Shown here piece by piece: positions 2,842 through 43,623 of a DNA stretch of 44,315 nt. A program made the position numbers and the translations under genes. Source of the DNA: Gemmatimonadota bacterium (GTDB lineage: Bacteria; GCA-2686955); assembly GCA_002686955.1 (NCBI GenBank), contig NYZA01000171.1, positions 1 through 44,315 of the forward strand, written 5' to 3'. Positions within the stretch are counted from its first letter, which is position 1. Each line of letters begins with the position of its first letter. The notes under the pieces are model-generated. The model saw only the letters and a list, made by a program, of their open reading frames with translations, was not told the DNA's origin and ran no database searches.

Positions 2842-2848
2842 CGTGGGG

Positions 2849-4712: not shown

Positions 4713-4730
4713 GTTCGGACACCGGCCTGA

Positions 4731-4760: not shown

Positions 4761-4797
4761 GGCCGTCCACTATTTCGTTGTCTTGCGGCGCGCTCGC

Positions 4798-5919: not shown

Positions 5920-5935
5920 GGAGCGCCCCGATCCC

Positions 5936-6670
5936 ATGCGCAACATCAAAGTAGTGTTCAAGCGTGAGCTGGCGGGCTACTTCGCTACGCCGCTCGCCTA
6001 CGTCTTCCTCGTGATCTTCCTGATTCTCACAGGGGTCTTCACCTTCTATCTCGGCGGCTTCTTCGAGCGGGAGCAGGCCGACCTGCAGCCCTTCTTCGCG
6101 TTCCATCCCTGGCTTTACCTCTTCCTGATTCCAGCGCTTTCGATGCGCCTGTGGGCCGAGGAGCGGAAAAGTGGCACGGTCGAGCTGCTTCTCACGCTTC
6201 CCCTGTCGATGACCCAAGCGGTCACCGGAAAATTCCTCGCCGCCTGGTGTTTCACCGCGATCGCTCTCGCCCTGACCTTCCCGATCTGGATCACGGTGAA
6301 CTACTTGGGCACCCCCGACAACGGCGTGATCTTCACCGGCTATCTCGGCAGCCTTCTGATGGCGGGTGCCTACCTGGCGATCGGCGCGTGTATCTCAGCG
6401 GTCACTCGCAACCAGGTCATCGCCTTCGTCGTATCGGTCACGGTCTGCCTCGGCTTCGTGCTCGCCGGCTTCCCGGCCGTGCTCGATGTCTTCGCCGGAT
6501 GGGCACCGCAAGCCCTGATCGACACGGTGAGCTCCTTCAGCTTCCTCACCCACTACCAAGGCATGTCGCGCGGAATCATCGACTTGCGAGACGTGATCTT
6601 CTTCGGATCGCTGATCGCTTGCTTCCTCGCGGCGAACGCCCTGATCGTCGACCTCAAGAAAGCGGACTAG
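5936..6670 (+). CDS. ABC-2 permease, GldF-like
   Basis: A 244-aa integral membrane protein with about six hydrophobic segments and the N-terminal NIKVVFKRELAGYFATPLAYV pattern (RELxxYFxxPxAY) of GldF-type ABC-2 permeases. MRLWAEERKSGTVELLLTLP is the conserved cytoplasmic segment between the second and third membrane spans. The ATG at 5936 is preferred to the upstream in-frame ATG at 5888, which would overlap the ATPase gene by 32 bp and add a Pro/Arg-rich, non-homologous tail. It forms the membrane channel with the ATPase at 5194. The spacing to both neighbours is short (16 and 10 bp), so co-transcription is likely. Confidence 0.9.
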   Translation: MRNIKVVFKRELAGYFATPLAYVFLVIFLILTGVFTFYLGGFFEREQADLQPFFAFHPWLYLFLIPALSMRLWAEERKSGTVELLLTLPLSMTQAVTGKFLAAWCFTAIALALTFPIWITVNYLGTPDNGVIFTGYLGSLLMAGAYLAIGACISAVTRNQVIAFVVSVTVCLGFVLAGFPAVLDVFAGWAPQALIDTVSSFSFLTHYQGMSRGIIDLRDVIFFGSLIACFLAANALIVDLKKAD

Positions 6671-6680
6671 GAGCCCAGGC

Positions 6681-8585: not shown

Positions 8586-8588
8586 TCG

Positions 8589-9740: not shown

Positions 9741-9793
9741 AGGTTCCCCCCCTTCCGAGACCGGCTCTTCGCGAACCCTTGGCCACAAAAAGA

Positions 9794-9825
9794 GCGGCGC
9801 GTGGACCTTTCGGCCCACGCGCCGC
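9794..9825 (-). terminator. Hairpin terminator after the phosphopantetheinyl transferase gene
   Basis: A perfect 11-bp stem (GCGGCGCGTGG / CCACGCGCCGC) with a 10-nt loop; on the minus strand it is followed by TCTTTTT, so it suits the leftward operon ending at 10196. On the plus strand there is no T tract, although it lies 54 bp after the DUF4340 gene. Confidence 0.7.
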
Positions 9826-9858
9826 GATCCCTTCGGACATTGCTCGTCCGGCGGAAGA

Positions 9859-9884
9859 AGCCGGCTCGCCACGACGAGCCGGCT
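9859..9884. terminator. Second hairpin in the convergent intergenic region
   Basis: A perfect 10-bp stem (AGCCGGCTCG / CGAGCCGGCT) with a 6-nt loop, followed on the minus strand by TCTTCC. A further 8-bp stem (CGACCCGA / TCGGGTCG) lies at 9907-9935. Together they form a hairpin cluster between convergent genes. Confidence 0.5.
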
Positions 9885-9935
9885 CCGAGCTGCCCCCCTG
9901 TCGACTCGACCCGACTCTGCGTCGGGCTCGGGTCG

Positions 9936-10195
9936 TATCCGTCTGCGAATACAGTTCGGCTCTCCGCTGAATAGTCTGACGCCCGGAAGCTCGGTCGCGC
10001 AGTAGCGCGTAGCTACTATTCGACTACATCTATTTCATATCCTTGGCTAAGACGCTTGATTCCAGTCACTTCCCTCTACCGTCGAGGCTTCAACGACGGG
10101 AAAGGCGCAGGGACACCTTCGCCAGGTAGTCTGAGTCTGCCTCCAAAACCGTCGATATTTCGTCGCGAAATCGGGATGGGGCGGGATTTCGCTAG
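9936..10195. other. Non-coding remainder of the 9741-10195 convergent gap
   Basis: After the hairpin cluster the gap holds only a short AGTAGC-gcgta-GCTACT stem at 10001-10017. No gene, RNA or repeat was recognised. Confidence 0.5.
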
Positions 10196-10909
10196 TTACC
10201 ATGCGAAGATCCGCCGCCGAAGCTCCTCCCCGGGTGCGATCTCCACGCAGATCGCCGCGCGGTAGCCGGGAGCGACCGTCAGGGCGTCGAGCATCCAACG
10301 GTCGGTTCTGTCGCCCTGAACTCGAGTCTCCAGCAGCGCTGCCGGTGCGTTCGGAGCGAAATCGACATCGAACCGATCGAGACCCAGTAGGACTCCTTTT
10401 CCGTGTGCCTTGATGAACGCCTCTTTCCGAGTCCACACATCGAAGAAGGCGATCTCGCGCTGCTCCGGAGCCAGAGCGCGGTAGGCACGAAGCTCCCGTT
10501 CTGAAAAAAAACGGGACACGATTCGATCCCGATCTCCGCGGCGGTCGACCTTTTCGATGTCGACGCCGACGAGGCGCCTCCACGCAAAAGCCAACAGCGC
10601 CCAATCACCCGAATGGGAGAGATTGAACTCCAGGGCGCTCCCCGCGATCCGCGGTTTGCCCTGTTCTCCGTTCGTGATCTCGATCGATAGAGGCTCGGCT
10701 CCGAGATATGAACCGCTCAGAACACGCAGAAGGTGGCGCGAGGCGGTGAATGCGGACCGTCTATCGGCACTGAGAAAGCCGGATGCTCGACGCCGCTCAG
10801 CGTCGGTCAGGACAAGCTGGGCGGATACGATCTGGCGCAAGCAAGCTCTCCAGATGTGGACTCCGCCCTCGTTGAGCGCAGGAGGCTCATCATGCCTCTC
10901 CCAATCCAT
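10196..10909 (-). CDS. 4'-phosphopantetheinyl transferase, Sfp type
   Basis: A 237-aa Sfp/AcpT-type transferase that would move phosphopantetheine from CoA to carrier proteins. Visible motifs are GVDIEKVDRR (Mg-binding Asp and Glu) and DVWTRKEAFIKAHGKG, matching the family's (W/F)xxKEAxxK. FNLSHSGDWALLAF is the third conserved block. The ATG at 10909 is chosen over a TTG at 10912 because AAGGA lies 5 nt upstream and the stop of the amidase gene overlaps it by one base (TGATG), implying translational coupling. No polyketide or non-ribosomal peptide synthase is in the window, so its carrier target is unknown. Confidence 0.88.
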   Translation of the reverse strand: MDWERHDEPPALNEGGVHIWRACLRQIVSAQLVLTDAERRRASGFLSADRRSAFTASRHLLRVLSGSYLGAEPLSIEITNGEQGKPRIAGSALEFNLSHSGDWALLAFAWRRLVGVDIEKVDRRGDRDRIVSRFFSERELRAYRALAPEQREIAFFDVWTRKEAFIKAHGKGVLLGLDRFDVDFAPNAPAALLETRVQGDRTDRWMLDALTVAPGYRAAICVEIAPGEELRRRIFAW

Positions 10910-12420
10910 CAATCCTTCTGGAGCATCATGGCATCGCCGATGACGACATCACCGGGCGCCGCATCGTTCGCGAGACCGAAATGGACTCGCCCCCTCGGCA
11001 TCCAGTAGGTGCCGACGCTGTTCCACTGCCCGCCGCCGCTCTGCTGATCGAAGGTCGTCGTGTACAGGTCGCCATCGATCAGCACTCCGAATCGGGCTGC
11101 CGGCGAGCGGTTGGAGCCGGACGGCCACCAGGCGAAGAGTCGATAGAATCCCGGATCATCGATGAAATGGCTCCAGTAACAGAGATCTCTTCCGCCTGGA
11201 TCGGTTCCCGCGAAGAGATAGTCAGGGCCGTATCGCCCGGGAGCAGTGTTGCCGATCGTCCACGGTCCACGGGTCTGGGCACTCGGGTTGTCGTAGATCC
11301 AGATATCGGTTCCGCCGCCCAGGCGATCGTCCACCTCCTGCCGCAGCTCCGGAAGCTCGGAGTAGAGAAGGTCGCCAGGACACGCCGTCGACTTGACGTC
11401 CCTGTGACCGTAGATGTTGTCCATCAGCCCGGCGTAGCCCACATAGTAGTCCCTTCCGAAAGGATCGATCCCTTTCTGGTCAGCCTTCCAGGCGTAGAGC
11501 TCAGCGTAGGCATCGAGGAGCGAGAACGTAGGCATATCGTTGTATGGGGTGTGGAAATAGCCGAGCGCACCGACACCCATCGAGCCACAGTTGTACCCAT
11601 CGTGAGCAGCTCGCACGTCGTCCCCCCCGGCCCTCCCTTCCCACATCTTGCCGTGTTTGCATACGAGATGGTTGTATCCGATGTCGCACCAGCCGCGGGT
11701 GTACATGTGATAGTCCTGGATGCCGCGCACATTCGATGCACAGTCATCGAAGCCCTGCGAATCGTACGCGCCGGGAGACGCCGTGTGGTGTGTGCCCAGA
11801 TGAGTGACGGAGCAGTAATCTGATGAGCATTGCGGTGGATCGGCGCCCCATTGTTCGCGAGAGTAGATCGGGGGCTTCGCGTAGCCGTCGTCGCGCGGTT
11901 GTCCCTGATACTCGCGGGAATCGGAGCCATCGATGAACACCAGCGAGAGATGATCCAGAGTCATCGATCCGTGCTCGGGTGAAAAGGAGAGGCGGGCGCG
12001 CCAGCGCGTCGCATGGTCGGCGCCGAAGAGGAGCAGGGTGCCGACCTCATCACCGAAGGCTCGATTGCCGGATCCGTCTGCGAGTCGCGGGAGGGTCGCG
12101 GAGTGCGGATCGGAGGCCACCGCGAACCACCGACTCGGCCGGGCATCGACTTGCAGCTCGATCTCGAACTCCCCCGATCCTCCAGCGAGCCAGTGGCTTC
12201 CGAGGGCGGTGAAAGGGATCGGTGCATCGACCCAGGGTGTGACCAGGACGACCGGCCCGGTGATGTTGAGAGTGCCCCCCGCGAGACGGACTGCCCCCCC
12301 CTCTTCGATCAATGAGCCAAGGTCGATCGATTCGTCGGCTGGCTGGACCAGCGATTGAGTGGAGTGAGCGGTGGTCGCCGAGAGTGCGGCGACGAGCAGG
12401 AAAGCAGACGGTGCCGGCAT
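10909..12420 (-). CDS. Secreted N-acetylmuramoyl-L-alanine amidase (PGRP fold) with golvesin-like C-terminal domain
   Basis: A 503-aa protein beginning with a hydrophobic signal (MPAPSAFLLVAALSATTAHS). An uncharacterised domain occupies residues 25-185. A PGRP/amidase_2 domain spans about 186-365, with zinc-ligand candidates His211/212 (THHTAS), His339 (YGHRDV) and Cys347 (TACPGD). The last 120 residues, including YRLFAWWPSGSNRSP, GGGQWNSVGTYW and the closing IGDAMMLQKD, match the golvesin C-terminal-like fold. The ATG at 12420 is chosen because translation upstream of it (open to 13092) reads as non-coding Arg/Ser-rich sequence. It probably cleaves peptidoglycan stem peptides outside the cytoplasmic membrane. 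It is coupled to the following transferase gene. Confidence 0.85.
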   Translation of the reverse strand: MPAPSAFLLVAALSATTAHSTQSLVQPADESIDLGSLIEEGGAVRLAGGTLNITGPVVLVTPWVDAPIPFTALGSHWLAGGSGEFEIELQVDARPSRWFAVASDPHSATLPRLADGSGNRAFGDEVGTLLLFGADHATRWRARLSFSPEHGSMTLDHLSLVFIDGSDSREYQGQPRDDGYAKPPIYSREQWGADPPQCSSDYCSVTHLGTHHTASPGAYDSQGFDDCASNVRGIQDYHMYTRGWCDIGYNHLVCKHGKMWEGRAGGDDVRAAHDGYNCGSMGVGALGYFHTPYNDMPTFSLLDAYAELYAWKADQKGIDPFGRDYYVGYAGLMDNIYGHRDVKSTACPGDLLYSELPELRQEVDDRLGGGTDIWIYDNPSAQTRGPWTIGNTAPGRYGPDYLFAGTDPGGRDLCYWSHFIDDPGFYRLFAWWPSGSNRSPAARFGVLIDGDLYTTTFDQQSGGGQWNSVGTYWMPRGRVHFGLANDAAPGDVVIGDAMMLQKD

Positions 12421-12503
12421 CGCTGTGACCTTTCGGCCCCCGCCGCGATGCGCTAGATCGGGAAAGGGCTTCTCGACGGCGTTGTCCTCAATGATAAGAG
12501 GAT

Positions 12504-12905
12504 CTACAGCGCGCTGCAGAATCGGCGGCGAATAATCACTCGTGCGACTGCACCGGTCACCAGTCCAAAAATCAGTCCAGCCGCGAGCCCTGTTCCTATG
12601 ACGCCGGGCGCGGCGGATGTCGCGTCGAGTCCCGCGATCTGATCCGCGGACCAGGGATTGTTGGCGCGATAGGTGCCGAAGAGAAGAGTCTGCGCGGTGC
12701 CGGCCAGCGCTCCTGCCAACAAGCTCGCGGCGGTAGCGGTGCGAATCGGCGCCGGATGCCTCCTGTGCACGAGAACCGCGATCCAGATCGCGTAGATCAG
12801 GATCCAGACCCAAGGTTCCACCGACACGGGCATCCCAACGAGGGATGTCAGAAGCCCCATGAGAACGCCTAGCGATCCGAGCCTGAGAATCAGCGGCCAA
12901 TCCAT
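12504..12905 (-). CDS. Small polytopic membrane protein, unknown function
   Basis: A 133-aa hydrophobic protein with about four membrane segments: LGVLMGLLTSLVG, WVWILIYAIWIAVLV, AASLLAGALAGTAQTLLF and IGTGLAAGLIFGLVTGAV. I do not recognise the family. The frame is clean, starts with ATG and has the hydrophobic periodicity of a real membrane protein. It lies 83 bp upstream of the amidase gene on the same strand and may be co-transcribed with it. The start lacks a strong ribosome site. Confidence 0.65.
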   Translation of the reverse strand: MDWPLILRLGSLGVLMGLLTSLVGMPVSVEPWVWILIYAIWIAVLVHRRHPAPIRTATAASLLAGALAGTAQTLLFGTYRANNPWSADQIAGLDATSAAPGVIGTGLAAGLIFGLVTGAVARVIIRRRFCSAL

Positions 12906-13239
12906 GGGACCAATGTAGGCCAGAGCACGATCGCGTCAATCCAAGCGCGTGCCTCTGGTCTTCGCCATCGGAACTGTGGACAGAGCGTCGGCGTCTCTGG
13001 CGAAACCTGTCGGACCAGCCGACAGCCGGGGCCCGCGCGACGTCGGGGTGGCGAATGTAGGGCGTGTCGTGGTCGTCGATTGCGCGTTCCATTCAACTCT
13101 GGCCCGCGGCGTGCATCAGCAGCGCCCCAGCAAGTTCAAACCTGCTCGAACGACGGCCCCGGAAGTACATACAGGTGGGGACCCTCGGGCGCCGGGGGCG
13201 GCAATGTCGCCTTCCGGCGTCTTTGGGCCGGCGCCCAGG
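12906..13239. other. Intergenic stretch with a GC-rich hairpin after the response regulator gene
   Basis: The arms GGGCGCCGG (13187-13195) and CCGGCGCCC (13228-13236) form a perfect 9-bp stem directly after the response-regulator stop. The 32-nt loop contains a further GCCGG/CCGGC pairing. There is no T tract, so at most it is a transcript-stabilising or Rho-associated structure. Nothing else was recognised. Confidence 0.5.
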
Positions 13240-31420: not shown

Positions 31421-34024
31421 ATGCGAAGATCGATTCTGCTTCTGGTCGCCGCGGCCTTCGTCGGTACGGCGATCCTGCTCGCGGTGCTCGATTCGCAGCA
31501 ACTTCGAGAGAACGCCCGCGCCTACGGTGAGACGAAAGATCCGAAACGCCCTGCCGAGAGCGAATGGATCAAGCGCACATTCCCTCACTTCGACGCTGCT
31601 CCCAGCGCGGTGGCCGAGATGATCGGCCAGGCGCAAGCCCACCGTGCCAGGCCGAAATCCCACTCCGCCGACTACGGCGCCTGGGAGTTCGCGGGGCCTA
31701 CCAATATCGGGGGGCGGATCACCGACATCGAATTCAATCCCAGCGACGGCAACACCGTCTACGCGGGAGCCGCCACCGGCGGTGTTTTCAAGTCGACCGA
31801 CAAAGGGAATACCTGGGCTTCGATCTTCGACGACCAGGCCGCACTTTCGTGCGGAGATATCGCGGTCGATCCGAACAGCACTCAGGTGCTCTATGTTGGA
31901 ACCGGCGAAGCGAACGGAGGTCACAACAATTTCCCTGGTGGAGGCGTCTACAAGTCGACCGACGGGGGAACAAGTTGGACGTTGAAAGGGCTCGAGACAA
32001 CGGCATCGATCGGGCGGGTCGCGGTCGATCCCGCGAATTCCAACCGGATATTCGTGGGCGCTGTTGGTTCCTACTTTTCGCCGGCACCGGAACGTGGGCT
32101 CTATCTCTCTGAGGACGGTGGAGAAACCTGGGATCTCTCGCTCTTCGTCTCCGACAGCACGGGTTGCGTCGATGTGGCGGTCGATCCGAGCGACCCGAGC
32201 GTGGTTTTCGCCGCGATGTGGGAACGTGTGAGGCGCCCGAACTCCTCTCACCTTTTCGGCCCGACCGGAGGACTCTTCCGATCGCAAGATGGCGGAGATA
32301 CATGGATTGAGCTCACCGGTGGGCTGCCCGATCCCGACTCTGAACAGATCGGACGAATCGGGATCTCGATTCACGAATCCGATCCAAGCATCGTTTATGC
32401 GCTCTACAACGACGGCGCCGACTACGTAGGCCTCTATCGCAGTAACGACGGAGGAGATAGTTGGATCGATGCCGATCCGGCGAAGAGATTGGACGACGGC
32501 ACGGCGGGCTTCAGTTGGTACTTCGGGCAGGTGCGCGTGCACCCGAACGATCCTGATATTGTGTACGCGCTCGATGTGGCGTTCAGTCGATCGACCAACG
32601 GAGGATCGTCATGGCCGATCATGTATGGCTATGGCGGGCCGCCGATCCTGCATGTCGATCATCACGCTCTCGCCTTTCATCCGGAGGATCCGTCCTATCT
32701 CGTCGAAGGAAACGACGGAGGCATCAATATTTCAACCAACGGCGGCCAGAGCTGGAGCAAAGTCGCGAGTCTTCCTGTGACACAGTTCTATGAGATCGGC
32801 CTCGATACGCAACGACCCGACAGACTCTACGGAGGCACGCAAGACAACGGAACGCTACGGACCGTGGCGGGAGCGATCGACGACTGGGAGGCGATCTACG
32901 GGGGAGACGGCTTCTATGTGAATGTCAATCCCGAGGACTACAGAGAGATCTATGCGGAATCACAATTCGGGTTCCTGGGGAAGACCACGAACGACGCGGC
33001 GAGCTGGAGCTACGGGGTGTTGACCGGTATCAACCCCTCGGAATCTACTAATTGGTCTACTCCTGTGGTAATCGCTCCGAGCGATGGAAACACGCTCTAC
33101 TACGGAACCGATCGCGTCTATCGGAGCACCAACGGCGCCGGCGTCTGGAGCGCGATCAGCGATGATCTCACCGATGGGCTGCCGGATACGCGCCTGGGCA
33201 CGGTTACTACCATCGCGGTCGCGCCAACGAATGCCGGCGTGATCTGGGCGGGCACCGATGACGCTCATGTGTGGGTTACGACCGATGGAGGCGGCATTTG
33301 GAGCGATGTGTCATCAACGCTGCCGACCCGCTGGGTCACGCGCATCGCCGTCGACCCGATCGACGATCAGGTTGCGTACGTCGCGTTCTCCGGTCTGAAA
33401 TGGCACGACCCGGAACCTCATATCTTCAAGACGACCGACAGTGGAGAGAATTGGAGCGACATCAGCGACAATCTGCCCTCCATTCCGATCAACGCGCTCG
33501 CGATCGACAACCAGGATCCGGACGTGATTTTCGTCGGCACCGACGCGGGCGCATGGGTGAGCACCTTCGGCGGCGGGCAGTGGGAGGTGCTGGGAAGCGG
33601 ACTGCCCTTGGTCTCGATCTACGACCTGAAGGTACATCCCACGGAGCGATTCCTCGTCGCGGGGACTCACGGGCGGTCGATGTACAAGCTCGCGCTTCCT
33701 GAGGGAGTGAATGTGGAGGAGAGAGAGGAAGCGACCGTCGCCGGGCCGATGATCCGCCTGCATCCAGGCGCACCGAACCCATTCAACCCTTCGACGACGA
33801 TTCGTTTCACGCTCTCGGAGGCGGGAGCGGTGCGGCTGACGGTCTATGATGCCGCCGGTAGGAAGGTGCGGATGCTGCTGGATGAACGAAGGGCCGCGGG
33901 GGAATACGCGAGCCGCTGGGATGGCAAGGACGATGCCGGTCGAGGCGTGGCTTCGGGGCGCTACTTGGTTGTGCTGGAGGCGTTGGGGCGGAGGGAGACG
34001 GGGAGTTTGGTCTTGGTGGAGTAG
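31421..34024 (+). CDS. Exported beta-propeller (VPS10/BNR-like) protein with FlgD-like C-terminal sorting domain
   Basis: An 867-aa protein starting with a signal-like hydrophobic segment (MRRSILLLVAAAFVGTAILL). Repeated blocks of the type VYKSTDGGTSWT, LYLSEDGGETWDL, LFRSQDGGDTWIEL and HIFKTTDSGENWSDI are Asp-box/sortilin-type propeller repeats covering most of the chain. The last 90 residues are an FlgD-like type A sorting domain (PGAPNPFNPSTTIRF ... YDAAGRKVRML ... LVVLEALGRRETGS). That tail is characteristic of secreted proteins of FCB bacteria and suggests export across the outer membrane. GAGGAA precedes the ATG. Its ligand or catalytic function is unknown. Confidence 0.88.
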   Translation: MRRSILLLVAAAFVGTAILLAVLDSQQLRENARAYGETKDPKRPAESEWIKRTFPHFDAAPSAVAEMIGQAQAHRARPKSHSADYGAWEFAGPTNIGGRITDIEFNPSDGNTVYAGAATGGVFKSTDKGNTWASIFDDQAALSCGDIAVDPNSTQVLYVGTGEANGGHNNFPGGGVYKSTDGGTSWTLKGLETTASIGRVAVDPANSNRIFVGAVGSYFSPAPERGLYLSEDGGETWDLSLFVSDSTGCVDVAVDPSDPSVVFAAMWERVRRPNSSHLFGPTGGLFRSQDGGDTWIELTGGLPDPDSEQIGRIGISIHESDPSIVYALYNDGADYVGLYRSNDGGDSWIDADPAKRLDDGTAGFSWYFGQVRVHPNDPDIVYALDVAFSRSTNGGSSWPIMYGYGGPPILHVDHHALAFHPEDPSYLVEGNDGGINISTNGGQSWSKVASLPVTQFYEIGLDTQRPDRLYGGTQDNGTLRTVAGAIDDWEAIYGGDGFYVNVNPEDYREIYAESQFGFLGKTTNDAASWSYGVLTGINPSESTNWSTPVVIAPSDGNTLYYGTDRVYRSTNGAGVWSAISDDLTDGLPDTRLGTVTTIAVAPTNAGVIWAGTDDAHVWVTTDGGGIWSDVSSTLPTRWVTRIAVDPIDDQVAYVAFSGLKWHDPEPHIFKTTDSGENWSDISDNLPSIPINALAIDNQDPDVIFVGTDAGAWVSTFGGGQWEVLGSGLPLVSIYDLKVHPTERFLVAGTHGRSMYKLALPEGVNVEEREEATVAGPMIRLHPGAPNPFNPSTTIRFTLSEAGAVRLTVYDAAGRKVRMLLDERRAAGEYASRWDGKDDAGRGVASGRYLVVLEALGRRETGSLVLVE

Positions 34025-34053: not shown

Positions 34054-34452
34054 CTACCGCTCCCGCCCCTCCCACTCTTCCTCTTCCCGCTTCACCTTCA
34101 GCCGCCGGCGCGGCGTCCATTCCCCGATCGAGAGCGATCTGGCGGCGTCGCTGCGGACGGTCTGGCGGAGCTCGCGCACGTTGCCGGGCCATTCGTAGCG
34201 CTCGAGAGCGCGGCGGGCCTCGGCGGTGAAGCGCAGCTCGCCGGAGGGGAGGTCGCGGGCGGCGGCGAAGTCCTCGATGAAATGCTCGAGCAGGAGCAGA
34301 ATGTCTTGGGGCCGCTCGCGCAGGGGGGGCAGGGCGAGCTTGATGTCTGCCTTGTTTCTCACAAATGTGTCGTATGCCTTGTAGCCATCGGACAGCAACG
34401 TGCCCTTAAAATCGCGCAGTCGGTGGCAACGGGAGCTCAAGCCAAGAGGCAT
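34054..34452 (-). pseudogene. Chimeric relic: IS66 tnpC fragment joined to a sigma-54 AAA fragment
   Basis: The open frame encodes two unrelated pieces. Its first part (about 34411-34362) reads DFKGTLLSDGYKAYDTFVRN, like the DDE-region of IS66 TnpC (GTLxxDGYxxY). From about 34355 on it reads ADIKLALPPLRERPQDIL and later YEWPGNVRELRQTVRSDA, the C-terminal AAA+ part of a sigma-54 activator, lacking Walker motifs and any helix-turn-helix. The join is in frame by chance or selection. It looks like the scar of a deletion between an IS66 element and a regulator gene, not a working protein. Confidence 0.7.
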
Positions 34453-34720
34453 CGCTAGTCACTGGTTCTTGATCACCGAGCCGCTTCTTCCAACGGTGAA
34501 ATGAAGAGAGGCTGAGCTCCTTCTTCTCACAAAACGCGCGTTGCGTCGGCCCGCTGCTCGCGTGCTCGGAGACAAGTTTCTTCCAATGGGCCGCGCCGCG
34601 CCGTCGCCGCGATGGATTGCGAGTGCCGTCCATGAAATGGTCCTCCTGGGATCAAGGTGATCCAGGGACCATAGACTCGCCGGCGACGGCGGGGAAGAAC
34701 GCCGGAAAATGACCGCTTAC
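34360..34720 (-). mobile_element. IS66 remnant A (minus strand, left end plus tnpA plus tnpC scrap)
   Basis: The terminus at 34700-34720 reads, on the minus strand, GTAAGCGGTCATTTTCCGGC, the GTAAGCG start of IS66-family ends. It is followed by tnpA and a short tnpC scrap, then cut off by a deletion near 34360. Confidence 0.7.
34406..34633 (-). CDS. IS66-type accessory protein TnpA (remnant element)
   Basis: A 75-aa helix-turn-helix protein: AHWKKLVSEHASSGPTQRAFCEKKELSLSSFHRWKKRL matches the small TnpA protein of IS66 elements (W...V...SGLSQxxFC...LSxxxFxxWRRRL). It begins 87 bp inside the IS66 terminus ending at 34720, the normal layout. The tnpB and most of tnpC that should follow are missing, replaced by the chimeric fragment at 34054, so the element cannot transpose by itself. 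Confidence 0.75.
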   Translation of the reverse strand: MDGTRNPSRRRRGAAHWKKLVSEHASSGPTQRAFCEKKELSLSSFHRWKKRLGDQEPVTSDASWLELPLPPTARF

Positions 34721-34983
34721 GCTGGACCGAAGTGGGCGCGGAACTCGTCGGAGTGATCCAGAGTCTTATGAGCACCTGCCGGTTGCACAGCGTCGATCTC
34801 TACACCTACCTTGTCGACGTTCTCCTGCGAATCGCAGACCACCCGGACGCTCGCGTGGAGGAGCTCACTCCGAGGCTGTGGAAAGAGCTCTTCGCTGACG
34901 ACCCGCTCAAGTCTGATCTCGATGTCATCCCGCCGCGCCACCAGTGGCGCCGAGCCGGCTGACGTCACAGATTGACCGCTTAC
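34721..34983 (+). mobile_element. IS66 remnant B (plus strand, tnpC 3' end plus right end)
   Basis: From 34723 the plus strand reads WTEVGAELVGVIQSLMSTCR and then HSVDLYTYLVDVLLRIADHP, the C-terminal end of IS66 TnpC, stopping at 34962. The right end TGACCGCTTAC finishes at 34983. The start of this fragment abuts the terminus of remnant A exactly, as expected if A had jumped into tnpC of B. Confidence 0.72.
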
Positions 34984-35028
34984 GCAGCAACCGCGACGCA
35001 AAGGGGGTCCGCCGAAAGCCGTGCGCGG

Positions 35029-35847
35029 TCATGTGGCGGCCCCCTTCCATGGCTCTCCAGGTAGTCGACGGACCAACGACTCATGGACGACGTCCCAGGC
35101 GCGGCCGGTGTCGTACTCCAAGTCGGGTCGCAGCAACGGGGCAATGTCATCGACGAACAGAGCGTCGTCCAGCTTCGCCGCCATGTTCGCCTCGAACTGC
35201 GCCCGCGTGGCGGCGGTATCCACGAAGGCCATGTAGTCTGTGAAGCAGCGAACGATCTCATTCGGATCGACATCCTGCTCCGTCAGGGCGAGCCAGAGGT
35301 CGAAGAGGTCGCGACCCTTCTTACGCTGGTACAGAGCTCGCATCTTGGTGCCGAGCAGTTCAGCGAGGCTGTACGTCGTAACATCGGCCTCGCCCGAAAA
35401 CCACGGATTCGCCACCGTGTACTCACGCCGTAGTAGACCGAGAACGCTGAAGTGCTCACGGGTGTTGATCTCGACCTTGAGGCGCATCCGCACGACGGGG
35501 ACGAAGGTGGTGTCGAAGCGATAGTAGAGGGTGAATCGCCCCTCGCCCTGCTTCCACTTCGGCTTGCCGAGCCATGGGTCCAGCGCCTCGCGAATAGCGT
35601 CGATCAGACCACCGATGGGCCCGGCCTCACGCTGCACGAGATCGATGTCTTCGGAGTAGCGACCAGGCGGGTCGAAGAATAGCTTGTGCAGAGCGGTACC
35701 ATCGCGAAACACGGCATGCTCCCCGACGGCAGGACGCTCGTGCATGGCGACCAGGGCACGACTGAGGAGGAGATCCTGTTCGACCTGGGTGTTGTCGGGC
35801 CACGGGGCGGCAGTGCGCCAGGCCGTGATGTTCGCGCGTGGGATCAT
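35029..35847 (-). CDS. abiEii: AbiEii nucleotidyltransferase toxin
   Basis: A 272-aa member of the AbiEii/MenT nucleotidyltransferase family. Diagnostic blocks are VFRDGTALHKLFF, PGRYSEDIDLV (the two catalytic acids), the RMRLKVEINTRE strand, and the QRKKGRDLFDLWLAL helix. Type IV toxin-antitoxin toxins of this kind act by nucleotidyl transfer and cause abortive infection. The ATG at 35847 overlaps the stop of abiEi by four bases (ATGA). It is the downstream member of the pair, as usual, and the enzyme is complete. Confidence 0.9.
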   Translation of the reverse strand: MIPRANITAWRTAAPWPDNTQVEQDLLLSRALVAMHERPAVGEHAVFRDGTALHKLFFDPPGRYSEDIDLVQREAGPIGGLIDAIREALDPWLGKPKWKQGEGRFTLYYRFDTTFVPVVRMRLKVEINTREHFSVLGLLRREYTVANPWFSGEADVTTYSLAELLGTKMRALYQRKKGRDLFDLWLALTEQDVDPNEIVRCFTDYMAFVDTAATRAQFEANMAAKLDDALFVDDIAPLLRPDLEYDTGRAWDVVHESLVRRLPGEPWKGAAT

Positions 35848-36638
35848 AGGTCGATGTCCACCTGTTCGTTGGGAACCAGTCGCCAGCACTGGTCGGCCTC
35901 AATCTCGCCAGCCGGCTGGTCGGTCCGCAGGCGCACCACGCTTGTCCGCCGCTTTGCCAACCAGTGAGCCAGCGGTTCCGCGAGGTCGCCTTCTCCAACG
36001 GCGGTGATGAGGTATCCGAGCCGCTGAACATCGGGCAGCCGAACGTGCGGGGCGACCGCCACGAGCCGGTCACCATCGATCTTCTCAGCCAACTCGGAGA
36101 GCACGGTTGCGACGTTGTTCCAGTGGCCCGCCGCCGAGAAGAACCGGACCAGGTCGAAGGCGGTCGTCTCCGGCGTCGCGACAGCCATGGTCCCCGTCTC
36201 CGTGTCGACTCGATTGACCGGCATCGCCGCAACAGCCTTGCTGGCATGCACATCGATCCGGACCCTGCCGGCGTGCATTGGCCTGGTCGCACGATCGGCG
36301 ATGACCTGGAACACCATCGGCTGTTGGTGCCCGGCCCCATGGAGCGCGGCCGCGCTCAGGATTCCCACGTAGTAGTCTCTCCCAAGGTGTTTCATCAGAT
36401 CGTCGATGAACCACGACGCTGGCGGGCAACCGGCCGCGCGGTACTCCGGCGGGGCGACGACGTAGAATCCACGACGCGGCGATGCGATCCGTCCCTTCTG
36501 CTTGAGCCGCCGAAGGGCCGTTTGAACCGCAACCTCGGAGCCTCCGAGGCCCGCTTCGACATCCGCGCGAGTGAAGACATACCGGCCCGAGGCCTGCTGT
36601 TCCTCCACCCACTCGGCTATGGTTTTCGGGCTGGTCAT
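35844..36638 (-). CDS. abiEi: AbiEi antitoxin/repressor
   Basis: A 264-aa AbiEi with an N-terminal winged helix (FTRADVEAGLGGSEVAVQTA and LRRLKQKGRIASPRRGFYVV) and a C-terminal domain containing YYVGILSAAALHGAGHQQP, PVNRVDTETGTMAVATPETT and AFDLVRF. AbiEi neutralises AbiEii and represses its own operon by binding inverted repeats. The ATG at 36638 is preferred to a TTG at 36644. A perfect inverted repeat at 36661-36675 lies 22 bp upstream in a well-formed promoter. The pair sits beside IS66 relics, a typical mobile defence context. Confidence 0.9.
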   Translation of the reverse strand: MTSPKTIAEWVEEQQASGRYVFTRADVEAGLGGSEVAVQTALRRLKQKGRIASPRRGFYVVAPPEYRAAGCPPASWFIDDLMKHLGRDYYVGILSAAALHGAGHQQPMVFQVIADRATRPMHAGRVRIDVHASKAVAAMPVNRVDTETGTMAVATPETTAFDLVRFFSAAGHWNNVATVLSELAEKIDGDRLVAVAPHVRLPDVQRLGYLITAVGEGDLAEPLAHWLAKRRTSVVRLRTDQPAGEIEADQCWRLVPNEQVDIDL

Positions 36639-36656
36639 GCGCAAATCCGTTCTCGG

Positions 36657-37094: not shown

Positions 37095-37875
37095 ACCACG
37101 AGACCGCGGCACATCCGGGCAGACGAGAGGCTCTAGACCATTCTCAAGGCGGTGCGGCACAGGGCATCCGCGGACCTCGACGGCCTAGAGCTGCGCTCAG
37201 TTAGTTCAGATTTGCGCGGTTTACGGTGATTGGTGACAATCGCTCCCAGTGTATCGCTGGGCGGTGCGCGCCCCAGGGCGAAAGCGGTCGCCAACAGCGC
37301 GCGGTCGTGCGTCGCCGAGTGCCCAAGTCACACGGTTGGAGCATCCAGGGCCGCGTGGGACCGCTTGCGACGGGCCATTCGCGTGGCCACGACGTGGGGG
37401 TTAACGGCGCGTGGGACTTCGAACGTCACCCCCGAGCGTTCGTCCTCGTGTTCGCGGCCGGGTTTGCGCTTCGAACGCGATCTTCCGGTTTGTCCTGCGA
37501 CCTCGAGAAGGTGCGCCGCCGAGGCAGCCGGTCACACCGAGACCATGGCGGCATGGATGACAGGGCCAGAAGTGGCGTTGCAACACAACCTTGGCGCCAC
37601 TGAGTCCCTTGCATTCGTGCGTGCGGATTCTGATCGATCGGTGTATGCTCAATCGACGATTGAGGCCGAAGCGGTCGCAACGTGAGGTGCCGAGAAAGCC
37701 GGCGGGCCTCATGCGTTACATTAACGGACCCTGGATAGCTGCCTGTCCGGCAAGAGCTTAGGGCTTTTCAGGGCTGAGTTATCCACAGGCATTCTGTCAA
37801 AACATGCCCGACATTCTGACATTGGCGAAAACGGCATCGCAACTCGTTGCGGCGCAAGGGCCCCAGAAAGGGTGG
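37095..37875. other. Gene-poor island segment
   Basis: The open frames here have no recognisable protein content. It holds a 17-bp palindrome CTCAATCG-a-CGATTGAG (37648-37664) and a perfect TTATCCACA box (37779-37787), the E. coli-type DnaA box, but only one copy, so no origin is claimed. The 160 bp before the repeat at 37876 could be a CRISPR leader. Confidence 0.4.
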
Positions 37876-37964
37876 GCCGCAAAGATTCCCTGATGAAGAT
37901 GGGATTGAGACAACCACTACGCGGCCTGGCGCGTGTCGTCTATCTCCTGCCGCAAAGATTCCCT
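37876..37964 (+). CRISPR. Probable CRISPR remnant: one repeat, one spacer, one truncated repeat
   Basis: GCCGCAAAGATTCCCT occurs twice, at 37876 and 37949, exactly 73 bp apart. The first copy continues into a 36-bp unit (37876-37911) ending GGGATTGAGAC, the ATTGA(A/G)AC end of many CRISPR repeats, with a short internal TCCC/GGGA dyad. A 37-bp unique spacer (37912-37948) follows. The second copy matches for only 16 bases, as a degenerate terminal repeat would. There are no cas genes in the window. A chance 16-bp repeat at this period is unlikely, but with two copies the call stays tentative. Confidence 0.5.
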
Positions 37965-38037
37965 TTGGACGTTCCTTCAGCCACGACGTGACGCTTCGAA
38001 GTCATCCCCCCGAAAACATGTCAGCGAGCCTGCCCCG

Positions 38038-40029
38038 CTACAGATCGAGAATCCCGGCCACTACCCCCTCATCAAGATCCCCGCCCAACTGAATCCGCGC
38101 CCCACCCAAGAAGCCCACGACTTCATCGAGCCCACAACCACGCCGCACCGAAGCCAGCAACAGATCTTCAGGAACACCGCGCCGCCAAGGCCCGGCCTGC
38201 GTCAACTTCGCCAGGCGACCCAGCTTGTCCTTGATGAAGGGCTCCACCGCGGCTTCGGTCACTACCGGTAGCCGGGGCGAACCGCCCGCGAGCGACACTG
38301 CGTACGGGCTCGAATCTATGACGGCGCCCGCGCCCATCATCTTCGCCAGTCGATCGAGAAAGAAGAGAGAGCCGACCGTCCCCAATCCGTGCAGCAATAC
38401 CGTCGCTCCCGCGATGCTCACTTGCCCCACGCTACCCGTCGCCACTCCCAGCGATTCGACTACCGCTCGGCCCAGCTCGAACGAGACACTCGGTGAGCCG
38501 GAGGGGCGGAAGCGCGCGGGGTTTGCTCCTTCGGCCGCATCGGTGAGGATTCGGTCGTCCGTCGTCTTCACGATCCGACGATCGCGACCGCCCACGGCGA
38601 TCTTGCGCGAGTCGGCCGCGGCGATTGTTCCGACGATCTCTCCGGTGATCCTGTCGACCACATCTACGGTCGCCGGATCATCGATGTTGGAGTGCAGGCT
38701 TCCGCGTCCGTAGCGCTGCTCGATCGCCTCGGAAGCGACATATCGATCGCTTCCGGCGCTCTCGAGTAGCTCCTTGTCGACCATTCGCTCGAGGAGCGCT
38801 TCGCAAGCGCCTTCCCCCAGCTCGTCGAGAATCTCGGGCGGTAGAACACGCTTCAGATCTTCGAGACGCACGTAGCTTCCCTCACAAGCCAGCACCAGCG
38901 CCTGCTGCACGACGATCGAGGGACGAAATCCGTATGGCGACGCACATAGACGGCCCTTCTTGCCCAACCTGAACATGGTCTGGAAAAGGTGTCTCTCCGC
39001 CTCGGTCTCGACGACGTAGCCGCAACGCGTCGTATCGCCGCGCCGTCCACCCCGACCGAGACGCTGCATCAGACTCGACACGTCGGCGGGAGGGTCGGTC
39101 AGCAACACATAATCGACCGTCCCGATGTCGATCCCCAGCTCCATGGTCAACGTCGCGAAGCAGACCGCGGCCGGCGCCTGATGAAAGAGGCGCTCGGTAC
39201 GTTCGCGGGTGGCTTTCGCCAACGATCCGTGGTGAGCGAAGATCTCTTCGCCGAAACGGGTACGGTTGCGCAGCTTCGCACTGAAGATCTCGACCTGATT
39301 TCGGGAGCGACAGAACACCAACATCTTCTTGATGCCGTGCCGTGCGAGCTCGTTCAAATGGACGGCTACATGCGACGGAGATCGACCCTCGAACACCTTC
39401 CCGAAGATCTTGCGGATTCCCGGCACCACGATCAGCTCGGCATTCGCCAGATAACGCCGACCCAGCTCCTCGGGCCGATCCACCGTGGCGCTCGCGGCGA
39501 CCCGTTGCGGTCGCGAGTCGGCGCCAGCTTCGAGCCTATGTAGCAGAACCCGCAGCTGGTCCCCGCGCGGTGTGTCGTCCAACACATGGATCTCGTCGAG
39601 CACCACGACGCGAACGCCGCGCAGAGCGGCCGGCCGTCGAGCCAGCAACGAATCGACCGCCTCGGGCGTCGCGATCACGACCGAAGGCAGCTTGCCGCCA
39701 ACCCACTCCTTGTGCTCGCCGGTGTAGCGACCGAACGACACATCGACCAGCCCCATAGGCCCATCGAGACGCCGCCGGAGATCGTTGACCAGGGCGCGTG
39801 TGGGCGCGATTACCAGAACGCGAGCGCTCGCGGCCCCGAAACGGCGCACCATCTCGACGGCCGGCGCCGCATACGCTTCTGTCTTTCCACTGGCGGTGGC
39901 CGAGCACATCAGCACGTCGCGCCCCTCCAGGATCGCTGGGATCGCGCGCTGCTGCACTTCGGTCAAGCGGGAGAAGCGCGAGAACCACGGACCGAAGGTG
40001 AAGGGCAGCGAACGCCGGTCGACGGTCAC
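38038..40029 (-). CDS. Lhr/BrxHI-like SF2 helicase
   Basis: A 663-aa superfamily 2 helicase. Motif I is SATASGKT (residues 43-50), Ia APTRALVNDL, II DEIH (145-148), III SAT (180-182), IV MLVFCRSRNQVE, V FATLTMELGIDIG and VI QRLGRGGRR. The accessory C-terminal half (about 375-663) begins in a winged-helix-like region (RLEDLKRVLPPEILDELGEG) as in Lhr-type enzymes. GTG at 40029 is preferred to GTG at 40047 because it overlaps the upstream stop by four bases (GTGA). It is the last gene of a four-gene operon with two P-loop ATPases. In type 2 BREX a similar helicase (BrxHI) accompanies BrxD. Confidence 0.85.
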   Translation of the reverse strand: MTVDRRSLPFTFGPWFSRFSRLTEVQQRAIPAILEGRDVLMCSATASGKTEAYAAPAVEMVRRFGAASARVLVIAPTRALVNDLRRRLDGPMGLVDVSFGRYTGEHKEWVGGKLPSVVIATPEAVDSLLARRPAALRGVRVVVLDEIHVLDDTPRGDQLRVLLHRLEAGADSRPQRVAASATVDRPEELGRRYLANAELIVVPGIRKIFGKVFEGRSPSHVAVHLNELARHGIKKMLVFCRSRNQVEIFSAKLRNRTRFGEEIFAHHGSLAKATRERTERLFHQAPAAVCFATLTMELGIDIGTVDYVLLTDPPADVSSLMQRLGRGGRRGDTTRCGYVVETEAERHLFQTMFRLGKKGRLCASPYGFRPSIVVQQALVLACEGSYVRLEDLKRVLPPEILDELGEGACEALLERMVDKELLESAGSDRYVASEAIEQRYGRGSLHSNIDDPATVDVVDRITGEIVGTIAAADSRKIAVGGRDRRIVKTTDDRILTDAAEGANPARFRPSGSPSVSFELGRAVVESLGVATGSVGQVSIAGATVLLHGLGTVGSLFFLDRLAKMMGAGAVIDSSPYAVSLAGGSPRLPVVTEAAVEPFIKDKLGRLAKLTQAGPWRRGVPEDLLLASVRRGCGLDEVVGFLGGARIQLGGDLDEGVVAGILDL

Positions 40030-41456
40030 GCCCGTCCGACTCGGCACGCGCGGAAACGGTCGGCGTCGAAGAGCAAGACAGTGGCGCGAACCGCGTCTCT
40101 AAAGCTGTCCTCACCGCGATCGTTGGCCTTGGCGATCCGCTGGCGAGCCGCCATGCTCAAGTCGCGGGTGATCTTGTGCTCCGGGTAGGCGCGCTGGTAG
40201 ATCGCCGCAATACGACGCACGAGATCCGGCAGTAGCTCGGAGCGCAGCGGCGCGAGATCGATACTGTACGCCTTGGCGTGAGTGACGGTGGAGAAGTACC
40301 CGCGGATCTCATCGAGCGGGGTCAGAGCGAATACCGTACACAGAGGCTGATTCCCGCGGAACTTCAGGGGCAGTTCGCGATGGACCTTGTGCCCACCCCG
40401 ATAGAGCAAGTCGGGTTCGAAAGCCAGATCGCCGGGCGGTATTGTGACGGCCGCGTAGTGCTTCAAGACCTCGAGGGCATAGCGCCGAGCGACGAGCCCG
40501 AGAGCATCGACCCGCTCTACCTCGTCGAAAAGGAGCACGAGTCCGCGCAATCCGGCGTCGCTGTACCAAGTGGCCAAGGTGCCGACGAGGTGGACGTACA
40601 TCCGCCCGAAGGTGCGAAAATCGGACATCGTCAGCATGCGCTTGCCGCGCCAACCGGCACGTGCTGCGACGTGATTGACCTCCTCTACGTTGACGGGCTC
40701 TCCGGCCACATAGTCGCGCACCAAGTGAGCCAACCGCGACTCGCGCCGCAAGACCTTCAAGTAGGGACTGAAGAACCTGCTCGCTCGCCGCCCCTCCCAG
40801 TCGTGGTGCATCGGGCTGTCGATGAGCTTCTCGAAGAGCCAATCGAGCCCCGAGCCGACCTGGTCCGGCACACGCACCGAAGCGGCGATCCGCCGGTAGA
40901 GCCTGAGGGGGTAGTGCAACGCATTCTCTCGCGGATCGAGAGTGATGCGCGCGGTCGCGAAGCCCCGTTCCAGGGCGAGCTGCTCGGCGGCCTCGAGCAG
41001 ATGGGTCTTGCCGCTGCCGTAGTCTCCCCACAGAACTCTGCATCCACGCTCTTCGTTCAGCATGGCGCTCAAGCTCGCCAACTCGGGCTCCCTGGCCACG
41101 GTGTACTCCCGAATCCCCCTGGCCGGCACCACACCCAAACGAAGTGCCTCGAGAGTCTGCCAGGCGTGGCCGGTCTCCGGCCCCGATGGCGACGGTGGTG
41201 GAGCAGGAGCAGGCAAGGCCCCGTTGACCCCGTTGGCCCCGGACGGCGGGCGCGAAAGCACGACGCCATCGTCTTCGGCTCGCTTCCGCGCCGACTCCGC
41301 ACTGAAGTCGAACTCGATCTCGCGGAGCTTCAGGGTCTTCGGCAACGAAGGGGAGGAATCGAAGGCGACGCGCGCCGCCTGGTAGGCCAGCCTCTGCTTG
41401 ACCACGCCTCTGCCCCACACGGCGTGAATCACCCGGTCGCCCCGTTTCAGCTTCAC
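40026..41456 (-). CDS. BrxD/DUF2791-like P-loop ATPase with N-terminal tudor-like domain
   Basis: A 476-aa ATPase. Residues 1-50 (LKRGDRVIHAVWGRGVVKQR) look like the CarD/UvrD-type tudor fold that binds nucleic acid or RNA polymerase. A Pro-rich linker (about 68-95) leads to the ATPase: LGVVPARGIREYTVAREPEL, Walker A WGDYGSGKTH (144-151) and Walker B GLVLLFDEVERVD (306-312), the pattern of BREX ATP-binding (DUF2791) proteins. The GTG start at 41456 shares one base with the upstream stop (TAGTG). It precedes the helicase gene with a GTGA overlap. Confidence 0.8.
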   Translation of the reverse strand: MKLKRGDRVIHAVWGRGVVKQRLAYQAARVAFDSSPSLPKTLKLREIEFDFSAESARKRAEDDGVVLSRPPSGANGVNGALPAPAPPPSPSGPETGHAWQTLEALRLGVVPARGIREYTVAREPELASLSAMLNEERGCRVLWGDYGSGKTHLLEAAEQLALERGFATARITLDPRENALHYPLRLYRRIAASVRVPDQVGSGLDWLFEKLIDSPMHHDWEGRRASRFFSPYLKVLRRESRLAHLVRDYVAGEPVNVEEVNHVAARAGWRGKRMLTMSDFRTFGRMYVHLVGTLATWYSDAGLRGLVLLFDEVERVDALGLVARRYALEVLKHYAAVTIPPGDLAFEPDLLYRGGHKVHRELPLKFRGNQPLCTVFALTPLDEIRGYFSTVTHAKAYSIDLAPLRSELLPDLVRRIAAIYQRAYPEHKITRDLSMAARQRIAKANDRGEDSFRDAVRATVLLFDADRFRACRVGRA

Positions 41457-42730
41457 TAGAACTCGACCTCGTCCGGCATCAGCTCCGCACCCTCTTCCGC
41501 CCCGGCGTCGGCCAGTCGCAGGACCTCCTCGGACGAGAGCAGTCGCTCCCCATCTCGACGCTGAGCATCGAGGAGTGTGACGGCCGCCTTTACGAAGGTC
41601 CGGCGTGTTCCCGACTCGAAGGAGCGCTCCCCAAGCTCACTCGCAAGCGCGGCCAGGTTTCCCTTCTGCGTAGCTTGGTCGTACTCGTGGTCGAAGCCCG
41701 GCGTCGCAATCTCCAGCAACCGCTCTCCGATCGCTTGCAGGAGCTCCGTCGCGCCGAGCGGAAGATGGTCCAGGTCGATGACCGGTTGCATGGGGCTCGC
41801 CCCGGAGAAATGCTGCGCCAACTTCAGCCGCTGGGCCAGCGCCGGATACTCGGGCACGACGGTGTCCATGAACTCCGGCGGCACCGCGTAGCACCAAACC
41901 ACACCGGGCAGCATCGACTGGCCGCAATAGTCGATCATCTGCCGCAAGTTGTCGCCCATAGCCCGTCGCCGGCCGGCGCTCAGGCTCATGTTGCGGTCCA
42001 TCTCGTCGAACATGAGCACGACGCCGGGCAGTCCCAGAGCGGCCAGGACTTGAGCCAAGCTGCGCAGCCAGCGGAACGCGCATTCGTCGCTCAAGACCTC
42101 GCGCAACCGGAACCCGGAGAGCTCCTGCCTCGGCAGATCATCCCCCAGCAGATAGTCGCCGAGCATCTCTTCGTCATCTAGCTCATCGGTCGCGACCGCT
42201 TCGAGGAACATCCGCACTCCGCGGCCGAAGGCTCGGCTCTCGATGTTGCTGCGAGCGAACTCCGTCTCCAGCCACTCCAGGAACGCCTTGGCGCCGCTCT
42301 GGGCGACGCGCTCCTCGGCGACCTGACGCAACACCCGCTCGATCCCCTGACTCGGCTCGTCGTCCAGCTCCTCGACCGGCAGCTCGAGCCGCCGAGCGAC
42401 CTCACGGTAGATCGCGACGGGCCGATCGAAGGGACACTCCTTGGGCGACAATCCGACCAGCGCCGTAACGAAGCCTTCGCTCCAGGCCATCTCTCTCAGA
42501 CAGTGCAGGAATTGTGTCTTGCCCCCCCCGAAAGGCGCCTGCACTAGTTTGAACGTGGAGTTGCCGACCGATCTCTTCAGGGGAATCAGGTACTCTCGAC
42601 GCAACAGATCGAGCAGCTCACCGGTCGCCACATTGACCGCTTGGGCACCGCGTTCGGGGGGCTGACCCGTGCTGCCCATCCGGTCGAGAATGTGCCGCGC
42701 CAGCTCCGGAGTCATCTTGGGCGGGTTCAT
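41456..42730 (-). CDS. BrxC/BrxD-like P-loop ATPase
   Basis: A 424-aa ATPase with Walker A APFGGGKTQ (residues 65-72) and Walker B VVLMFDEMDRN (237-243). The stretch AVNVATGELLDLLRREYLIP precedes the P-loop. A methionine and arginine pattern (AGRRRAMGDNLRQMIDYC) follows Walker B, and FMDTVVPEYPALAQRL resembles the sensor region of BREX ATPases. It is related to, but clearly different from, the next ATPase. The ATG at 42730 overlaps the stop of the first gene by four bases (ATGA); the open frame upstream to 42862 lies inside that gene. Two such ATPases side by side may form a hetero-oligomer. Confidence 0.78.
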   Translation of the reverse strand: MNPPKMTPELARHILDRMGSTGQPPERGAQAVNVATGELLDLLRREYLIPLKRSVGNSTFKLVQAPFGGGKTQFLHCLREMAWSEGFVTALVGLSPKECPFDRPVAIYREVARRLELPVEELDDEPSQGIERVLRQVAEERVAQSGAKAFLEWLETEFARSNIESRAFGRGVRMFLEAVATDELDDEEMLGDYLLGDDLPRQELSGFRLREVLSDECAFRWLRSLAQVLAALGLPGVVLMFDEMDRNMSLSAGRRRAMGDNLRQMIDYCGQSMLPGVVWCYAVPPEFMDTVVPEYPALAQRLKLAQHFSGASPMQPVIDLDHLPLGATELLQAIGERLLEIATPGFDHEYDQATQKGNLAALASELGERSFESGTRRTFVKAAVTLLDAQRRDGERLLSSEEVLRLADAGAEEGAELMPDEVEF

Positions 42731-43623
42731 GCGCGCTCCTCCTCCCTGGTGAAGAAGACGGTCAGCTTGAACTCTCCGGTGCCGTGCTCGTCTTCGACGA
42801 AGAGCGCCCGGTTCTTCTTCGATGCCGTGGTCCCGGTCGCCACACCGAGGTTCAGGCGCCATCCATCGCGGCGCAGGCCCGCGCTGTTGCGAAGCTGCAT
42901 CAGGTCGAACGCAAAGCGCGCCCGAGAGTATCCTCTGTAGTTCTTGCCGCTCGGCTCCACTCTGAAAGCCCTGGATTGCATTTGAAGCGCCAGATAGGGA
43001 AGGAAGTCGAGAATCTCCACCCTCTCCCTACCCCCACCATCCGCGCCCCGAGCCGCCTTCCACGCGCGCAGACAGGCATCGAAGAAGCGTGCCCCGTCGA
43101 ACCCGGCGCGCATCGACGCTAGCGCCTTGCCGTGCATCTTCATGATCGCGTCGGCCCCTGCCTCGCACTGGGCGATCGTCAGACGGGCGAATCGCAGCTC
43201 CGCCTTTCCCTTGTTCCGGTCGATCAGAATCGCGAAAGGCGTGATGCGGACCTCCACCGGCTCATCGTTGCGCACCACCTTGAGCTCCAGCCCCCGCTCG
43301 CGGCAGGCCGCGTTCAGATCCCTGGCCAATCTCTGCCGCATGCGCAAGCGGCGCTCGCCCAGCTCTTGGCGAATCTCGTCCAAGAGGAGCACCGCACGGT
43401 CCGCGACCACTGAATCGCGTGTCTTCCCAGCCACGTCGTCGAGCAAACGCGGCAAGCGGGTCAGATCTTCGTACGCTTTTGGCTTCGCGAGCGGCCCGAA
43501 GGCCGTCGCCAGCTTCCCCAGCGCTTTCGCCTCGGCCTTCCATGCCGCCTGATGCTCGGCCACGCGGCGATCGGTGGGCCGATCGCTCTCATGCGCGTCG
43601 AGAGGGAGCTCTATCTGTTCCAC
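42727..43623 (-). CDS. Unrecognised protein (298 aa), first gene of the ATPase-helicase operon
   Basis: The family is not recognised. The N-terminal 120 residues are charged and helical (QAAWKAEAKALGKLATAF, LLDEIRQELGERRLRMRQRL). The middle reads DEPVEVRITPFAILIDRNKG, a strand-rich block. The last third (YRGYSRARFAFDLMQLRNSA, GWRLNLGVATGTTASKKNRA, LFVEDEHGTGEFKLTVFF) looks like a compact domain that might bind nucleic acid or a partner. GTG at 43623 is preferred to a TTG at 43641 because GGAGG lies 8 nt upstream. No catalytic motif is visible, so an adaptor or target-recognition role is a guess. Confidence 0.72.
   Translation of the reverse strand: MEQIELPLDAHESDRPTDRRVAEHQAAWKAEAKALGKLATAFGPLAKPKAYEDLTRLPRLLDDVAGKTRDSVVADRAVLLLDEIRQELGERRLRMRQRLARDLNAACRERGLELKVVRNDEPVEVRITPFAILIDRNKGKAELRFARLTIAQCEAGADAIMKMHGKALASMRAGFDGARFFDACLRAWKAARGADGGGRERVEILDFLPYLALQMQSRAFRVEPSGKNYRGYSRARFAFDLMQLRNSAGLRRDGWRLNLGVATGTTASKKNRALFVEDEHGTGEFKLTVFFTREEERA

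Follow-up and report, generated by a model that had tools for sequence, protein, structure and literature searches.

A conserved and transferable four-gene ATPase-helicase module that shares the core of Shango and BREX type 2 and probably acts in defence

Four overlapping genes in a Gemmatimonadota contig encode two ATPases, a helicase and a protein of no recognised family, and they raise the question of whether such a set belongs to a known antiviral system, serves the host's own DNA or is a system in its own right. The window, by which we mean the whole 44,315-nucleotide stretch of DNA that was analysed, holds the genes, here called X, A, B and H (Table 1), close to one end: the contig stops at 44315, 0.7 kb upstream of X. 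Successive genes meet in the sequences ATGA (X/A), TAGTG (A/B) and GTGA (B/H), and these junctions, together with the open reading frames, bear out the four overlapping genes proposed in an earlier, sequence-only reading of this DNA.

Table 1. Coordinates of the four module genes and of the adjoining AbiE pair in the window
Feature	Position	Strand	Description
X	42727..43623	-	298 aa, GTG start
A	41456..42730	-	424 aa, ATG start
B	40026..41456	-	476 aa, GTG start
H	38038..40029	-	663 aa, GTG start
AbiEii toxin + AbiEi antitoxin	35029..36644	-	neighbouring type IV TA / phage-defence pair, outside module

A first scan, with X alone against 84,980 species genomes, returned two Planctomycetota contigs. 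One of them (L005) has the four genes arranged as in the window, at 59, 73, 60 and 65% identity for X, A, B and H, respectively, and with similar overlaps, and the occurrence of all four on an independent contig indicates that they are real genes. The other (L006) has X and A and a fragment of B, and a second contig from that genome carries B and H; over the two contigs, identity is 54-59% for X and 68-73% for A. X is present in 18 of the 392 sampled Planctomycetota genomes (4.6%) and in 19 of 151 genomes of one order (13%), and when the 392 genomes were surveyed for PF10923, all those with two adjacent matches were also X-positive. The order X-A-B-H on one strand, or the portion of it that the contig covers, is found in the window and in more than 20 other loci, with short gene overlaps near-universal among the loci compared, and the idea of a stand-alone conserved module thereby gains firm ground. 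At one locus (L041) H was not found within the 1.1 kb left before the contig end. Unrelated genes stand between B and H at three loci (L035, L120 and L121); a fifth effector gene in this position was considered and rejected, as the inserts look secreted or unrelated, those of L120 and L121 being likely secreted proteins with NHL-like repeats.

Outside these chromosomal copies, the module occurs on two of 72,556 plasmid records, Aulosira laxa NIES-50 plasmid3 and Desulfomonile tiedjei pDESTI.01. Both plasmid operons were found with H and with the Aulosira/Desulfomonile proteins as queries; a plasmid search with window X and A returned none. Searches of IMG/VR with X, A and H gave no match, and the module is absent from the phages searched, where the sole match is one helicase of the BrxHI/SngC type (33% identity to H; positions 173-1177 of the unverified Klebsiella phage record OK490421), possibly host DNA.

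The sequence-only reading had described A and B as two BrxC/BrxD-like ATPases, and both indeed match the BrxC_BrxD family PF10923 (A at 3e-32, B at 6e-24); no other protein of the window genome does. From its family match and motifs we assign A to the BrxC/BrxD-type, ORC/Cdc6-class AAA+ ATPases. It has Walker A GGGKT, Walker B FDE and an ALxxRL motif, and B, 60% identical to its L005 counterpart, has Walker A GSGKT and Walker B FDEVE without ALxxRL. Both Walker motifs are preserved throughout the 18 A and 17 B proteins compared. The ALxxR(L/I) motif, located after sensor 1 and likely an arginine finger, is kept in A, SngB and BrxD and is absent from every B compared, a distribution which suggests that A completes the site of B in a mixed ring. 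The tree sets the B proteins apart as a group (SH-aLRT 92) and divides A among at least two lineages, none of them within SngB or BrxD; several branches are long and the deep order is unsure. The N-terminus of B had been called tudor-like. What stands of this is a conserved GxxVxHxxxGxGxV segment, found in most planctomycete-type B proteins and missing from those of Aulosira, Desulfomonile and the variant locus L045 described below, which looks like a tudor or SH3-like fold but has no match among the Pfam models. The AlphaFold2 (AF2) model of B (pLDDT 40) was too poor to judge the N-terminal fold and was not used.

H matches DEAD and Helicase_C in Pfam and, as its best PADLOC models, BrxHI (1e-71) and SngC (1e-65), in keeping with its first description as an Lhr/BrxHI-like helicase. 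Its motifs SGKTE, DEIH, SAT and QRxGR are intact, as are SF2 motifs I, II, III and VI in 14 of 14 H proteins compared, and we classify it on these features as an SF2 DExH helicase of the BrxHI/SngC/Lhr type. H proteins form their own clade apart from SngC and BrxHI (SH-aLRT 100), so that SngC appears closer to BrxHI than to H. A published helicase tree places SngC, BrxHI, DruE and DpdJ in one clade defined by antiphage function (PMC12278908).

X, noted at the outset as an unknown protein, has no Pfam, NCBIfam or PADLOC family match and one weak match overall; comparison with Pfam, PHROGs and PDB sequences gave isolated weak matches alone, mostly to coiled coils. The AF2 model of X has a mean pLDDT of 62 and a pTM of 0.46, and no PDB fold matches it at E below 0.1. 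Its secondary structure, modelled with low confidence, consists of long N-terminal helices, a five-strand meander and a helix-hairpin C-terminus, a pattern that we read as a putative coiled-coil N-terminus, beta-meander middle and winged-helix C-terminus, the winged helix being a guess from the secondary-structure pattern. Profile comparison joins the Aulosira and Desulfomonile X proteins to the planctomycete X family (98.5% probability) and marks the X of L045 as a distant, detectable relative (95.7% probability). By these comparisons X constitutes an undescribed family.

How the module came to the window lineage can be judged from A and PurH. Window A is 69-74% identical to its planctomycete homologues, whereas PurH of the same genomes is only 49-50% identical (a comparison that leaves out PurH of G239 and G366), and X was not found in G001, an 83% complete genome from the same family as the window genome; together these observations show that the operon was acquired across phyla. 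A mis-binned contig was ruled out, since PurH in the window is 69% identical to that of G001 and about 50% identical to those of planctomycetes. Inside Planctomycetota the divergence of A is similar to that of PurH, and the gene appears to have evolved slowly and largely vertically for a defence gene. Most planctomycete copies sit between housekeeping genes: the module of L005 adjoins mfd, and four loci (L030, L031, L032 and L112) share the same synteny beside heme-biosynthesis genes. Conserved housekeeping neighbours, which the sequence-only reading had named as evidence that would speak against defence, are not what we find, as neighbours vary by lineage (mfd/rnc in one, heme genes in another) and none is conserved between lineages. 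PADLOC found no defence island around the planctomycete copies, its matches there being mainly kinases and a dGTPase that we read as housekeeping. The distribution is patchy and transferable, yet unlike that of a fast-turnover defence island.

Other copies have different company. On the conjugative Aulosira plasmid (AP018310; L047, 1-9052) a BREX-2 PglZ-BrxD-BrxHI set lies directly upstream of X-A-B-H, and on the Desulfomonile plasmid (NC_018026; L048, 1-10064) AbiEii/AbiEi lie ~3 kb from it. With the window, this makes two cases of AbiE near the module. In one further locus (L043, in G220) a Sir2-family gene (4514-5263) directly follows H, and a PDC-S70/DUF3368 PIN-like gene with a likely antitoxin (10734-11493) lies near X.

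In the window itself, the adjoining AbiE pair named in the sequence-only reading is confirmed by both Pfam (PF08843 at 1.8e-36, PF09407 at 5e-36) and PADLOC (AbiEii at 1e-105, AbiEi at 2e-89). The CRISPR relic reported beside it is possible but unsupported: a 36-mer at 37876-37911, ending in ATTGAGAC, is followed ~73 nt further by a partial copy of ~15 nt (both within 37876-37965), no CRISPR array was found, and the 36-mer has no other copy in the genome. Between AbiE and H, TTATCCACA at 37779-37787 is a perfect DnaA-box match. Beside AbiE, at 34054-35000, lie IS66 remnants (IS66 C-terminal element PF13817, 1.5e-12), where an open reading frame fuses an IS66-like piece to a sigma-54 activator lid domain. 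An 867-aa sortilin/BNR-repeat protein with a C-terminal FlgD Ig-like domain is encoded at 31421-34024 and, along with a PorX-like protein on another contig (C144), hints at T9SS-like secretion in this phylum.

One locus departs from the four-gene plan. L045 (G269:C2:24000-43500, 1533-12918, minus strand) has X-A-B without H, all its genes being on one strand; a HerA-type ATPase (PADLOC mad8) and a 438-aa unknown protein precede the trio, and a 478-aa protein, an HsdS-like fragment, an HsdM methylase and a further S-like gene follow it. A second search of the sample for loci of this type found no more. If the variant holds up, X-A-B can serve different motors. We entertain, as a tentative reading that is possible but short of probable, that X-A-B is a portable target-recognition and loading trio, made of an asymmetric ORC/Cdc6-like ATPase pair and an undescribed adaptor, whose interchangeable motor would be a BrxHI/SngC-class helicase in most genomes or, in L045, HerA with methylation genes; it would then constitute a defence family of its own, a sister of Shango and BREX-2, and restrict invading DNA with neither a dedicated nuclease nor self-marking.

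For the four-gene module as a whole, we consider it probable, judging from its sequences and their distribution, that this is a conserved, horizontally mobile four-protein DNA-surveillance unit whose most likely task is defence against phage or plasmid invaders. Since distant bacteria share it as a fixed unit, and since it is similar to parts of established anti-virus systems while equalling none of them, it is probably an uncharacterised defence type. It most likely works like the ATPase-helicase core of Shango and BREX-2. A and B would form a hetero-oligomeric ORC/Cdc6-like ring on DNA, with A supplying an arginine finger to the ATP site of B; X, through its coiled coil and putative winged-helix end, may recognise the target or tether the ring to it; and the ring would load or activate H, which could unwind or remodel invading DNA and so stall its replication or expose it to host nucleases. 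As no dedicated nuclease or self-mark is encoded, discrimination would rest on the structure or state of the DNA rather than on methylation.

Defence is supported by the fixed gene order in more than 20 independent loci, with overlaps and with catalytic motifs kept in all members checked; by the position of H beside SngC and BrxHI, members of the antiphage helicase clade (PMC12278908); by patchy occurrence and the cross-phylum transfer into the window lineage; and by neighbours such as AbiE (window, Desulfomonile), the Aulosira PglZ-BrxD-BrxHI set, HerA, HsdM and the HsdS-like gene in L045, and IS66 remnants. It is weakened by the lack of a nuclease, by the absence of matches in IMG/VR and by a fold of X that AF2 does not settle.

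What further weakens defence is also what favours its main rival, in which the module serves chromosomal DNA repair or replication restart and the Lhr-like H is loaded by the A/B ring where host DNA is damaged or stalled. A connection with repair is known for bacterial Lhr, and most planctomycete copies have stable housekeeping placements (mfd in L005, the heme genes and their constant synteny in L030, L031, L032 and L112), no PADLOC defence island and a slow, mostly vertical evolution within the phylum. Against a repair role stand its rarity (4.6% of sampled Planctomycetota, 13% of one order), the transfer between phyla, the plasmid-borne copies and the want of any neighbour common to different lineages. 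On balance we favour defence and regard host repair as unlikely; if it is true, the module would provide bacteria with an Lhr-type helicase that has dedicated AAA+ loaders.

The defence reading invites comparison with known systems, for which real Shango operons with TerB_N/TerB_C proteins were retrieved. Shango, like the module, couples a PF10923-type ATPase translationally to a BrxHI/SngC-class SF2 helicase in a compact operon, begins with an accessory gene and encodes neither a methylase nor a nuclease in that operon. SngC is a homologue of H (hhalign E 2.5e-68) and SngB of A (3.5e-34), and the order of accessory, ATPase and helicase genes is similar, so that the module might be a divergent Shango with X in place of the TerB protein SngA and with a duplicated ATPase gene. 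This we find improbable. The module has no TerB_N/TerB_C protein, and homology of X to SngA/TerB was ruled out (under 1% probability in hhalign comparisons with five SngA proteins; no match to TerB or SngA models). It has two ATPases, of which B lacks the arginine-finger motif, where Shango has only SngB; A and B fall outside the SngB clade, and H outside the SngC-BrxHI clade.

A role in replicating or maintaining a mobile element, with an ORC/Cdc6-like initiator and a helicase, would account for the ATPase class, the two plasmid copies and the DnaA-box match, and is very improbable given that most copies are chromosomal, that no primase, integrase or repeats were noticed nearby, and that the module is missing from phages and IMG/VR and so rare among plasmid records.

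BREX type 2 also pairs an ORC/Cdc6-class ATPase with an adjoining BrxHI-type helicase, the BrxD-BrxHI dyad. BrxD has been described as an AAA+ ATPase of the ORC/Cdc6 kind that possesses an arginine finger, and the loading of BrxHI by BrxD has been proposed for BREX-2 (PMC12839542). The characterisation "BREX-related but distinct" holds: A, B and H match BREX-component families, yet PglZ is lacking, and A and B score 85.3 and 72.3 bits against the BrxD equivalog model NF033438, far below its cut-off of 350. H matches the PADLOC BrxHI model but lies outside the BrxHI clade. The module has X and B in addition and no PglZ, PglX, PglY or PglW among its flanking ORFs. PglZ is found neither in the window nor beside the planctomycete operons, and PglX and PglW are lacking among the flanking ORFs of the window, as far as the contig reaches, and of the homologous loci. 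The only PF08665 match in the window genome (84.5% complete), a 516-aa response regulator-PglZ protein beside a histidine kinase, was dismissed as a sign of BREX because it looks like PorX. The statement that methylase, PglZ and nuclease are missing likewise applies to the window and to most homologous loci, and the full BREX set that would have spoken against a separate module does not accompany the homologous operons, save for the separate BREX-2 of Aulosira. That copy, directly after PglZ-BrxD-BrxHI, and the PF10923 ATPases with a BrxHI-like helicase could suggest an accessory part or remnant of BREX type 2, an idea already largely refuted and of very low probability: in Aulosira, BREX-2 has a BrxD and a BrxHI of its own next to the module, and PglZ or PglX was noticed beside no other copy examined.

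Two further systems are more distant. L045, with X-A-B in an operon with HerA (mad8) and HsdM, recalls HerA/FtsK capture and MADS-like systems; the window module has H in place of HerA, which was seen with no X-A-B other than that of L045, and no methylase. Ssp offers an analogy only, in that an ORC/Cdc6-class ATPase is paired with a putative DNA-binding partner, the Ssp pair being SspC and the triple winged-helix protein SspB; X has no sequence match to SspB, and the module lacks phosphorothioation enzymes.

A description of the four-gene operon was not found in the open-access literature searched, most subscription papers being outside that scope, and the module is apparently undescribed in these sources; if it is a defence system, it is a family that PADLOC 2.0 misses as well. 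The likening to BREX stands as relatedness and falls as the sole closest layout, the SngB-SngC pair of Shango being at least as close. Both Shango and the BREX-2 pair BrxD-BrxHI occur widely, and we know of no explanation of their mechanism. A sister module whose ATPase pair is asymmetric, and which has neither nuclease nor methylase, isolates what they have in common, an ATPase ring and an SF2 helicase, and makes the role of this shared core directly testable. From the comparisons made here, the X-A-B-H module shares the helicase and ATPase core of Shango and BREX-2 and is a member of neither.
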